Position numbers and translations under genes: made by a program. Shown here piece after piece: positions 44-40,800 of a stretch of DNA of 64,000 nt. Under the pieces are notes generated by a model. The model was not told the DNA's origin and did not search any database. It saw nothing but the letters and a program-made list of their open reading frames with translations. Origin of the DNA: Echinarachnius parma (lineage: Eukaryota; Echinodermata; Echinoidea; Clypeasteroida; Echinarachniidae); the NCBI GenBank assembly GCA_037951105.1, contig JBAMJV010008915.1, forward strand, positions 124,001 through 188,000, written 5' to 3'. The stretch's first letter is position 1. Each line of letters begins with the position of its first letter.

Positions 44-3000
44 GTCACCTTCTTGAACTCTGTGATCGTCGATCTCCAGCGAAAGAATGATGAGCTGAGA
101 GCCAGGCTGGAAGTCATGGAATCGGGCTACATGAACGGTGACCACGATGAGATCGGCTTCGATGTCGAGTAAGAACTCTCCTTTCTAGTTTGATTTCTTT
201 CTTTATTTATATATCAAAGATTGTTTGATTTTGATACATATTAGATTAAGCAGGCTCAAAATTAACACTCTCTAGAAGCCATGGCGCTACATGATCAGAG
301 AAGATGATATTGGCTTTGATGTTGAGTAAGGACCCTCCTTTCAGTTTAAACAAAATTTGTATTCATCAAGGATTGTTTGATTTTGATATGATCAACCAGG
401 GCTCGAAATCCACACTGTAGCTAGTACTAGTACTCAGCGGATGCATCTGAGATTGAGTATACAACGCCATGATCTTAATCCAATATTAATGTCTGAAGCT
501 AGGAATCATAGAATCCTGCTACATGAACGGTGACCAAGATGAGATTGGCTTCGATGTTGAGTAAGAACTTTCCTTTCTAGTTTCATTTCTTTCTTGTTTT
601 TATTATTCATCAAAGATTCTTTTATTTTGATATGATTGACCAGGGCTCAAAATCTGCACTGTGGCTAGAAGCCATCAGGCTACATGAATGGAGAACACAA
701 TGAGATCGGCTTTGATGTCGATTAAGAAACCTCTTTTCAAGTTTGATTTTGTTTAAAATTCATTGTTTGATTTTAATTTTTATCAACCAGGGCTCGAAAT
801 CAACACTGGCTCCTAGGTCTATGGCTACCAAAATTGAATCCTAGGTCAAAATTCAAATTCAGCTTACTGTTGATTTTTATTTGCAAAAGAAAATACATAC
901 AATACTGTACAAACAACACTTTTGATGAGGCCAAATTTGACTCACTTGATTTAGTAGGCAACCAAGTTTAAATAGGCAGTTTACGCTTTTCTCTGTTTTG
1001 GACCACCAAATATAAATAGTTCAAAATGTCTTCCCTGGTAATGAGGCCATCAATTCAATTTGAATGATCTCACATTTTAACAAGGAAAACATTATTGTGG
1101 CAATGTTGCCATACTATTCAGTGACTGAGCCACAAAATTTGAATAGTCTTGAATTCTAATCAGTGGACAAGTTTATTTCGAGCCTTGATTTCATGATTCT
1201 CCATAGAAAAGAGAAATCCAAGGAACCTCCAGCACCCTCCTCTGAGGGGTAAAGTATTTTGGTTTATTTGTTATTTTTGTATGCAGTGATACTTCATTCA
1301 TTCATTCTTGTAATTTACTCTTATTTTCATCTTTAACAGAATATTTCAACCAATTAAATGTAGAATAGAAGTTGGAGACATGTTTTGGGGGGATTTTGTT
1401 CAGCTTGCTGTTTTGGTGCATTAATCCGGTTGTGGAGTGACTTCAAAATGTCCATAGTCATAGAGTAATGAAATATTGTGATATGAAATTTAAAATTGAA
1501 TGTTTTATTATAAGTGAACTCTCCCCTTAATGTAACAGTTTTGTAAATCCAAGCTTATTTTAGCTAAAGTAATAGAATACAAATAGTGAAGAAAAAAATT
1601 GCAATCAAAAAAGATTGTACAATTGGTATGGTTTTTGGTGTTCCTGATCCCTTTTGAACAAAATTATAATAATGTTCTTTTAAAACAAAAACTGTTTATA
1701 ATGAAGAAGCCCATGATATCTCTTGGAAGGTTGTTTGGAAACTGTTTGTTAAGGCATAGATTTTATTCTGGAACTTTCTTAAATTAATATAGTTCCACAT
1801 CAATTTTCTCCTTGAAATGTTTAATATCTGGCATTCTGGAGAAAACAAATCTGGAAATAAAATGTCAGATTTTGACAATATTAACAAATAAATAAACGGT
1901 AGAATGAAAGGTCCTCAATGATACAAACACACGTCTCTTTCTTGAGACTACTTGTTAAACCGTCGGAGATGATGTTAGTTTAAGGGATTTATGCAGTCGG
2001 TTTTATTTCAACAAGTGCATTATCCTTTTTTCCCTGATTGATGCATATGCTTTTGTTGCCCGATTCATATTTTGCATTATTAAACTTATTACGTAAGAAT
2101 ATGACAAATGAGACTTGAGTTTGTTAACATATTAGAGAGTCATGTACTTCCAGATGATTTTTTTTTGTACGAGTGAAAAAAAAGAAGACCTTTGTGTTTG
2201 TCCAAATTTTCAAGGAATAAAATTAATCTGCGTTGAATCATTTCACTTCAGTTCAATTCTTTAGTTAGTGGAGTGAATTTAACCCATAGACCTAATGTTG
2301 AATTACCAGTTGTGTTTTCAATTTAATCGCAAGTTTAAATACTATCCCTCTCATGACAATTTGTGTCACTAGGTGCTTCAATTATTTCTGAGATGCCCAA
2401 TGATTTGAGATGATGAGTTAATTAATATGATCATGTTTTGATATTGGGTTTGGATTCATTTCACATTTCATGATAAATATAAGCCATTAATCAGTGGTAT
2501 GACCATACTTGCCTTTATTAAACTAACAATCATTCATTGGGTCATGTTGGTTCATGAGTTTGAAGTGCACAGTTTGGGAGAAAAATACATTGTCTCTTTT
2601 GCATCCCTTCCCCACCCCCTCTTACCCTCCTTTAGTCTGGACATCAGCACCCATGGCCCACCGCCCCGCCTCTTCTGTGACATCTGCGATGTGTTTGACC
2701 TCCACGACACCGAAGACTGCCCTCTACAGGCCAGCTCGGACAGCCCTCCCGCCTCGCACTACCACGGCACAAAGCTTGAAGTCAGGCCGTACTGCGATAT
2801 CTGCGAAGGTGAGTTAACTTATGGGAGGAGAACAGATAGACTAAAGAAGAAAAAAATTGTAAATAAAATGAGCAAAGAAAATAGGATTTCCACAGGATTC
2901 GAACCTAAGGCCTCTGAAATTGCTAGACCATAGCTCTACTAACTGAGGCTATGACCTCATAGACAATGACAAAGTACATACTTATGTAAAGTAATTGTAG

Positions 3001-37800: not shown

Positions 37801-40800
37801 TAATAGGATGTCATTTTCAAGACTCACTTTCCAAGCGGCATGACGTTCACTCTAGCTTTAAGCTCATTGAGACGCTGCATATCTCTCTGCAGGGCCCACG
37901 CATGACTGAATGCAACAAATACAAAGTACATACAAAGAATGATAGCAACAATTTTTTGTAAATAAATAAATAAATAAATAATGCCCCTGTCTATTTAATT
38001 CCACCTCTTTCCACAGTACATCAATTATTCCATCATTACAATTTTATTTAAATACGTTCCCCTTTTTAAGTACCGTAAATATTGTAATTTACAATAATTA
38101 TTAATTAACTCTGCAATTTATTGTAAGATTTGTAAGAGATTGGAATTCCTCTCTTAAATGACATGCAGTAGATCAAGTGGTATGCATACATGCAATGAAG
38201 TGCATATGTTTGTTTTTGTTTTCGATACCATCAAATGAATAACATTAAAATTGCACTGTCGCTCAAAAGTTATAGGGAAATTTAAAGAGTTTTCAAATGT
38301 TCTTTTAAAACTATGAACTTTGAGATACTGAAAATCTCTCTGCAGGGCCCATGCATGACTAAGTGCACAAAATACAAAGTACATACAACATTAATGTTGG
38401 CAACAATTTTTTGTATCAGGGAAAGCTGAGGAGATTCAGAAACTTTGCTAAAATGACCACAACAAAATGAAATTCAAAAGAAAATTGAGGGTGAGAAGAG
38501 AAGAAATAAAAAACATTATGCTCAAATTGTACTTTTGTAAAGTACTTAACCTTTCTATACTTTTAAATTCTAAAAAAAATGTTTTCTATAAATTGTATAT
38601 TTTGTTTACAATTGTAAAAAGAGATCATGAAAAGGATATGTACAAATACAAATTACAAAGAAAACGTGGGATTATGTTTTATTATTTTCTTAGCTGTAAA
38701 TAGAGTTAAAGTAAGATAATATGTTTTATCTTATATTTTTAAGAATGGACATAAAGAGATACAATTCAATTAGTAACAATTTAACATACCTCAGGAGCCA
38801 GTGACTCCATCTAATTGGCTGAGCTCTCTATTTAAACAAGCAAAACAAAATCGGTAAATTAATATACTCAATATTCAAACACCACATGCATTGCAACTCA
38901 AATATTAAAGATCCAATTCAAATGTGCATTTATTAATTTCTTCATCATTTTGTCAAGGAAATTTTATGGAAATTAATTCATTTTATTGGTATGTGAATAG
39001 GAATATAGAGATAGACTGAAAATATTCCTACCATATGACAATCATTTTTCAGTAACAGATGGGTACAAGTATTTAATTTGTCTAATACCCTTTCGCTTTA
39101 ATGGATCAATTAGTATACCATTCATCAACATATTGAAAAAACAGCTGGCAATTGAGCTTGTTTGATATGAATTTACAAATTTCCTTTAAATCAGAATTAT
39201 TTTTTTCAAGCTTTCAACAATATCCAAATTGAGAATAAGGTCAATGAACATTTAAAGAAAATACTGAAAATGCAGATGAAATGATCATACAAAATATTAT
39301 ATGCCCATTACTAATTATACTAGGATAGTGTTTTTAAAACAAAATCATGAATTTAAAAGTGTCATAAAAATGTGTCTCAAAATAGAAATGGAAGAGAAAT
39401 AAGTGCAATTTTATAAGTAATGCAAATAATTTAAAAGGAATCAGAACTTGGATATCTTACCTGCAAATGAGTATATCCAGGCATTAAAACATCAACTTCC
39501 CTGAAAGAGAGGAAGAAAATGAGAGATAGAGGTGCTAAAATATTTGAATCCTCTCCCATACACATGTATATAGCATATCAATTAATTTTCCCTATTTGTA
39601 TGATTTATGTAGCTTATTTATTATGTTGATTGTACAAGTTCTTCTATTTGTATACAGGGAGCACCTGTAAAGCATTTTTTTCAACTGAGGTTGCCTACCC
39701 TGTTTGGGTTTCAAAGAAAACAATCCTGTATTCTCGCTGCAAAGACCATGGATCTTATGCTCGAGTCACTTCCAGATATTAGATGCCTTGAAAGCCTTCA
39801 ACAGGGCAACCATAGCCTTATATCAGTGCAACTCTAAAAACATTAGTAAGAAGGATCAATGACAATATTGAATATGAAATTAAATCTATTCCAAAAAGAG
39901 ATTTTGCAATTCCTGTATCTTACGGGGGCCCACCAAGTTCCCGTAGGCAATGGGTTAATAAACAATATGTACTTACTGCCTAGCTCTTTGCACAAGAACT
40001 GATATCAGGTCCGACATCAGGGGGGAAATTGAATCAAGACCATCTCGTAACCATAGCCTTATGTCTGTAGCACTCTAAAAAGACCAAAGAAAGAATGTTT
40101 TAAAAAATATGAAAGTTAGTCAATTTGAAATACATGTACAGTATACCTATTGCCTTGGTTCTCTGTACAGGGACTGATATAAAGTTAATCCGTTCAGGAC
40201 TGGTCTCGAAAATACTCTGGATTGGCTTTATGGAGAATGCATGTTTAATGATGTTATAGCAAAATCAATCAGTCCTGAATGGGTTAAAGTGATCTATCAA
40301 CTTTGTCAACACAAACAAAATCACTTGGGGCTTCCACATTTCTCTTGTATAATTTTCTCACCAGATTCAGGTTTCGGGCACTAGAATTTGAATTTTCCTT
40401 TTTAACTTGCCCGACTTGGCGACAAGGCAAAAGGGTACATTTCTAGCATTGCCTTGTGTGCCGAAATTGGCACTGGAAAGACTTCCACCTTTTATTACCT
40501 CCGCCAACAAAGTTTGTTTGTTTGTTTGTTCGTCACCAGTCTCCTGCGCACAATTTCACAGAATCTCAACCAATTTTTCGTAGAATATTCGTGTTCATCT
40601 AGAATAGAACCCATTACATTTTCAAAGTCAATAGTCAAAGGGCAAGGTCAAAATTTAAGTGTTGGCAGAGGTATGCACTCCCTGAGTGCACTGCGTCTAG
40701 TTTACCTGATCATTCCTGCTCCTGCCCGTGTGCAGCTTGCCCGCAGCAGGTCCTATGAGCTCCCTCAGCCTCCTCTCATTGGCTGTGTGGATATCTTCAT

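Follow-up and report, generated by a model that had tools for sequence, protein, structure and literature searches.

The window analysed here is a 64,000-nucleotide stretch of the Echinarachnius parma genome assembly, and it carries CLIP1, AIP, SNRPD3, ASL and the 3' part of NLK (Table 1). In several of these genes the edge of an exon is repeated, often together with its splice site and adjoining intron, close to the parent exon; in a count over these and other genes, 26 of 119 splice junctions carry a nearby self-copy, which points to a share of roughly a fifth. The window is animal DNA with 36% GC. COX1 of the same assembly reads best with AAA as Asn, ATA as Ile, AGA as Ser and TGA as Trp, and the mitochondrial gene order is large-subunit (LSU) rRNA-COX1-tRNA-Arg-ND4L-COX2 (ND4L and COX2 named by eye); such a code and gene order are those of echinoderms and rule out amphioxus, the animal suggested by papers on similar structures.

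Exon-edge copies in the window

Human proteins served as tblastn queries to place the exons, whose edges were then refined to GT/GC-AG. Spliced with all copies skipped, ASL exons 2-14 give 458 codons in one open frame; the mapping of the window did not reveal exon 1. An apparent GC donor is found at ASL exon 2 (window position 46992, ATG followed by GCAAGT), and it is the same on the other haplotype.

The score of a copy comes from a local alignment (+2/-2, gaps -5/-1.5) in which the 120 bp surrounding a position are matched to 1.5 kb on each side; the working threshold is a score of 60, and the alignment has to extend at least 12 bp past the position both ways. Only same-strand copies were considered. 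At this threshold 9 of the 37 window junctions have a copy, compared with a chance level, obtained from reversed flanks, of 0.2% of positions.

All 13 extra exon-edge copies that an earlier note had listed for CLIP1, AIP and ASL are present, on the same strand as the parent and within about 600 bp of it. The note had assigned them to nine exons; our recount gives ten, with three copies for CLIP1 exon 44-168, one each for AIP exons 2, 3 and 4 and for ASL exons 4, 7, 8, 9 and 13, and two for ASL exon 14. It had also described each copy as including a splice site, which holds for ten of the 13 (the CLIP1 donor three times, the acceptors of AIP exons 2 and 4, the donor of AIP exon 3, and the acceptors of ASL exons 4, 7, 8 and 13) and fails for both ASL exon 14 copies and the ASL exon 9 copy. 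SNRPD3 and ASL exons 5, 6 and 11 are free of copies at score 60, as the note had it, and ASL exons 2, 3, 10 and 12 are likewise without a copy in the window at that threshold.

Units with clear ends abut head to tail, with gaps of 3-4 bp at ASL exons 8 and 13, as in tandem duplication. The weakest case, the ASL exon 4 copy, scores 60.5 in the window and 57 on the other haplotype. In AIP intron 3 a decayed copy of the exon 4 acceptor lies about 46 bp after the exon 3 donor copy (by eye). The same intron holds, at about 16405-16978 and between exon 4 acceptor copies, an element with inverted ends AAAGGGGAAGTTTC...GAAACTTCCCCTTT that looks by eye like a miniature inverted-repeat transposable element (MITE). 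Tandem duplication without any exon, reported earlier near 44.1-44.7 kb, is real by self-comparison of the window, and Tandem Repeats Finder (TRF) places a further array of about four copies of a 151-bp unit at 42325-43062.

Table 1. Genes, parent exons and local copies. Positions are those of the window unless a contig is named.
Feature	Position	Strand	Remarks
CLIP1	window	+	Pfam/PDB agree with name
AIP	window	-	Pfam/PDB agree with name
SNRPD3	window	+	LSM domain; Pfam/PDB agree with name
ASL	window	-	matches human ASL in PDB, E 7.7e-195
NLK (nemo-like kinase), 3' part	59146-64000, continuing beyond the window on C8899	-	named via a human sequence
CLIP1 exon, parent, donor after 168	44..168	+	GT donor; open frame joined to exon 2636-2808; Pfam CLIP1_ZNF on joined piece
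CLIP1 donor copy 1	281..424	+	exon end, GT donor and intron
CLIP1 donor copy 2	498..668	+	GT kept
CLIP1 donor copy 3	674..821	+	TT in place of GT (by eye)
AIP exon 4, parent, terminal	15909..16114	-	tblastn and splice-site refinement
25-bp perfect tandem array	16165..16218	-	looks like AIP exon 4 acceptor (by eye)
AIP exon 4 acceptor copy	16262..16407	-	
AIP exon 3 donor copy	17011..17159	-	
AIP exon 3, parent	17271..17775	-	tblastn, splice sites and Pfam/PDB search
AIP exon 2, parent	18165..18344	-	tblastn and splice-site refinement
AIP exon 2 acceptor copy	18457..18595	-	identity 92% in exon part, 71% in intron part
ASL terminal exon (14) coding-end copy 2	28315..28391	-	no splice site
ASL terminal exon (14) coding-end copy 1	28589..28722	-	no splice site
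ASL exon 13 acceptor copy	30267..30480	-	abuts parent unit (3 bp gap)
ASL exon 9 interior piece	34248..34305	-	58 bp
ASL exon 8 copy	36305..36491	-	entire 53-bp exon, with neither splice dinucleotide left
ASL exon 7 acceptor copy	38320..38415	-	
ASL exon 4 acceptor copy	39808..39895	-	weak; in intron 4, downstream of its exon
ASL exon 3 acceptor, single unit	40706..40846 (allelic stretch 40777-40893)	-	
ASL exon 3 acceptor array	C3933:373300-374176		eight head-to-tail units of about 108 bp each
Exon-free tandem duplication, ASL intron 2	44080..44713	.	self-comparison

Differences between the haplotypes

The assembly (1.2 Gb, 14,790 contigs) keeps both haplotypes as separate contigs. One of these, C3933, is allelic to and collinear with the window contig over about 100 kb, with 2.9% substitutions in ungapped blocks, and it carries the same AIP 2, AIP 3/4 and ASL 4, 7, 8, 13 and 14 copies. 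The haplotypes differ at four junctions, those of CLIP1, ASL exon 3, ASL exon 9 and NLK exon 7, and the duplication process is therefore still active.

At CLIP1 the window has four units (parent plus three) and C3933 has three (parent plus two); one unit of about 165 bp is absent from the latter, and the alignment places the gap at copy 1. The most extreme difference concerns the ASL exon 3 acceptor, a single unit in the window and an array of eight on C3933, where aligned unit lengths are 103-119 bp, the spacing is mostly 107-110 bp and the seven extra units are 94-99% identical to the parent. At ASL exon 9 the 58-bp remnant in the window corresponds on the other haplotype to a longer copy with an intact donor, and a copy of the NLK exon 7 donor is present on the other haplotype and absent from the window contig.

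Of the haplotype length differences of at least 35 bp, 26 of 83 have a local same-strand copy (14 of 91 in a stricter scan). As a comparison free of age effects, haplotype-specific duplications within gene spans were counted: the scan found 15, some in poorly anchored intervals, and overlooked one more, the ASL exon 3 array. Four span a junction (CLIP1, ASL3, ASL9 and NLK7), a small number close to the 2-4 that a hand calculation from junction density leads one to expect. On the other haplotype a 216-bp, 99% identical duplication starts 11 bp into AIP intron 2 and leaves the donor untouched; such events thus need not involve a junction. In two haplotype-specific duplications filler lies between the units (about 46 bp at AIP 2 and about 85 bp at NLK 7, by eye), which, as a guess, would fit end-joining repair.

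Junctions, introns and gene bodies

Outside the genes named in the earlier note, 17 of 82 junctions carry a copy (NLK, myosin and Cpn60/TCP1-family loci). The myosin and Cpn60/TCP1 loci account for 16 of 66 junctions at a score of at least 60, all 16 on the intron side, in a sample of 33 exons from a family search (27 of 82 myosin and six of 63 Cpn60/TCP1 matches), chosen mainly where several matches clustered on a short stretch. Contig C2768 shows two sets of myosin matches (27785-39190 and 117946-128363) about 90 kb apart, with equal scores and near-equal spacing; these are perhaps haplotypes joined end to end. Recurrent and general local duplication, as the note had proposed, is borne out by the varied ages of the copies, by haplotype-specific and exon-free copies, and by a like rate in other genes.

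Copies are slightly more frequent at junctions (26/119, 21.8%) than at deep intron positions (15.8%), the latter being 3615 overlapping 20-bp tiles at distances above 250 bp from any annotated exon; exon positions have a copy in 20.3% of cases, and intron positions up to 100 bp from an exon in 15.7%. The ratio of junctions to deep intron is 1.40 (confidence interval (CI) 0.91-2.52, bootstrap over loci), falling to 1.10 (CI 0.49-2.87) for young copies that are at least 88% identical, and the ratio of near-exon to deep intron is 1.00 (CI 0.57-1.67). In the window alone, a copy is found at 9 of 37 junctions and at 11% of all tiles, whether genic or intergenic, and circular shifting of the junctions gives P 0.11-0.15. 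A special involvement of exon edges, which the note had raised, is thus not upheld by these ratios: the comparison of junction with intron counts that it had called for yields a slight excess and no clear hotspot.

The note's own doubt, that junction copies might merely be easier to recognise, turns out to be the better reading. Among the 26 junction-copy pairs, identity is 86.0% on the exon side and 81.6% on the intron side, and the exon side is better preserved in 18 of the 25 pairs with enough bases (Wilcoxon p 0.008), as expected if the parent exon is conserved. We therefore favour the view that junction copies are easier to see, perhaps with a modest real excess besides. The pairs comprise 16 acceptors and 10 donors, with the whole-exon ASL 8 copy counted once in each, and 24 of the 26 lie on the intron side of their junction; the copies of the ASL 4 acceptor and the ASL 8 donor lie in the neighbouring intron.

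A contrast of another kind appears between genes and the DNA separating them. Within a region of 124 kb that includes the window, 15.5% of the positions in four gene spans (CLIP1, AIP, ASL and NLK) and 3.5% of those between genes fall in local duplicates, or 15.6% and 1.4% in DNA common to both haplotypes. The excess is weaker when duplicate clusters are counted: they number 25 in 79.7 kb of genic and 4 in 29.9 kb of intergenic DNA on the window haplotype (P 0.07), and 30 in 82.0 kb and 4 in 37.2 kb on the other (P 0.008), which is not independent of the first. The comparison includes just four intergenic stretches, the CLIP1 span comes from coding-like frames and not from annotated exons, and coverage is uneven inside genes, dropping almost to nothing in parts of CLIP1 and in the 3' part of NLK; SNRPD3 has no cluster. 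Short tandem duplication might tentatively be seen as a gene-body process (for example, transcription-associated), by which introns grow largely through copying their own and exon DNA, splice-site arrays being a by-product; we regard this as possible and rather doubtful. The duplicate-poor intergenic stretches of the window (4500-15800, 19500-22300, 23500-28000 and 47700-59000) are suggestive only.

Origin of the copies and comparison with known systems

We propose, with a probability of about 0.83, that the copies arise by frequent, polymorphic local tandem duplication that is indifferent to splice junctions and tolerated in introns through splicing at the outer site. Short duplications, with copies mostly about 100-500 bp apart, would arise often and apparently regardless of junctions; a unit that happened to lie across a donor or acceptor would leave a head-to-tail repeat of exon edge, splice site and neighbouring intron. 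The outer, original site would presumably still be spliced, restoring the original exon, and the inner copy would become nearly neutral intron, which could then decay or expand into a minisatellite of splice sites. The apparent preference for exons would follow from the conserved parent exon, which keeps the pair recognisable for longer. Such a process would account for the tandem layout of the copies, their placement in introns, their polymorphism and decay, their occurrence in several genes and the absence of a detectable junction hotspot; the neutrality of the copies and the choice of the outer site are its more conjectural parts, as would be any molecular cause of the duplications.

Several points weigh against this proposal. 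The estimated junction ratio is above 1 and its interval allows a twofold excess, and in the myosin/Cpn60 sample alone junctions stand at 24.2%, near-exon intron at 16.7% and deep intron at 14.0%. The two sides of the pairs differ little in identity, and in 7 of 25 not at all or in the opposite direction, so that better preservation perhaps accounts for only part of the excess. The sample has weaknesses of its own: beyond the window, junctions come from a script and not from transcripts, locus L027 (C1237) is partly allelic with L030 (C9272), and L027 was picked after a partial exon copy had been noticed there (the count is 14 of 62 without it). Copies are also few in NLK, at 1 of 16 junctions on the window haplotype and 2 of 12 on the other. 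Finally, AG/GT is kept in 23 of 26 pairs, slightly above the proportion of about 0.74 that a hand calculation predicts for 14% divergence (tail about 0.07). This leaves some room for use of the copies, although 3 of 5 CLIP1 copies lack GT.

The junction excesses overall, in the myosin/Cpn60 sample and in the window relative to all its tiles are what would be predicted if a junction-targeted process, such as breakage or R-loops at splice sites or splicing-coupled repair, preferentially duplicated exon edges. We consider this improbable. Young copies show no clear excess at junctions, in an admittedly underpowered test, and the circular shift gives little support. Moreover, a junction-centred unit must take in intron DNA next to the exon, and copies there are raised little or not at all, which speaks against such a process.

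Somewhat less probable again is the idea that selection maintains the copies as functional alternative exons or splice sites. The survival of splice dinucleotides would fit it, as would the ASL exon 9 copy on the other haplotype, whose frame is intact and whose exon part differs from the parent at four positions, all synonymous (by eye); two of these four, however, fall on the parent's side when the window parent is compared. Nor does function sit easily with a whole-exon ASL 8 copy that has neither splice dinucleotide, with copy numbers that differ between haplotypes, with the in-frame stop shortly after the exon part of a typical ASL exon 3 unit (by eye), or with the CLIP1 copies: both of those on C3933 are without GT, and of the five on the two haplotypes together three have lost it (by eye), one of the five being counted among the 26 pairs. 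Selection on the copied dinucleotides was considered and set aside, 23 of 26 being not clearly above neutral expectation; equally, this retention means that the copies are not obviously being purged.

Assembly artefact, with reads mis-collapsed or mis-repeated, is very improbable: separate haplotype contigs do invite local errors, and both contigs come from one assembly, but most copies differ from their parent by several to 35% and recur at matching positions on two contigs that are 2.9% apart, and the sharing of most copies by the allelic contig makes assembly error unlikely. Retrocopies are ruled out, as junction copies contain intron, and mobile elements carrying exon pieces are not supported, every copy matching its own neighbouring exon.

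If local tandem duplication is the source, the copies would provide raw material for alternative splicing and intron growth. They also complicate gene prediction by offering false exons. The ASL exon 3 acceptor, one site on one haplotype and eight on the other, is a natural test of splice-site choice among near-identical sites.

Tandem duplication is reportedly also a route to intron gain, in the Rogers model and in the internal gene duplications of Gao and Lynch. Among our 26 pairs, 24 on the intron side and two in the neighbouring intron, no new intron between duplicated exonic AGGT was found, and in ASL, the gene for which the frame was checked, it is open with the copies skipped. According to PMC3443670 and PMC4974935, intron gain by tandem genomic duplication likewise involves local duplication that includes splice-site sequence, but it copies an exonic AGGT and gives rise to a new intron, whereas here the copies lie within introns.

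The closest counterparts are the 'mirages' of amphioxus, described in globin genes, with Adh3 cited too (PMC3087553), and in troponin C and PGBD5 (PMC3902484). Among the papers listed by a limited literature search (titles and abstract openings, with few subscription journals), none reported mirage-like structures in an echinoderm. Amphioxus units are 10-160 bp long, and BflGb6 has six repeat units on one haplotype and three on the other (PMC3087553, PMC3902484); the units here run from 108 bp (ASL3) to roughly 200 bp. In both systems, units lie across splice sites of either kind (here 16 acceptor and 10 donor pairs), many but not all copies keep AG/GT (23 of 26 pairs here), and copy number is unstable between haplotypes (here CLIP1 4 vs 3, ASL3 1 vs 8 and NLK7 1 vs 2). 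Those papers describe mirages gene by gene, whereas here copies were counted over 119 junctions against an intron background. They also report normal splicing shown by reverse transcription PCR (RT-PCR), where for the echinoderm only the ASL frame, open with copies skipped, bears on it. Judged by sequence, the structures in this echinoderm appear to match the lancelet mirages in every testable feature, and would extend splice-boundary minisatellites from lancelets to an echinoderm.

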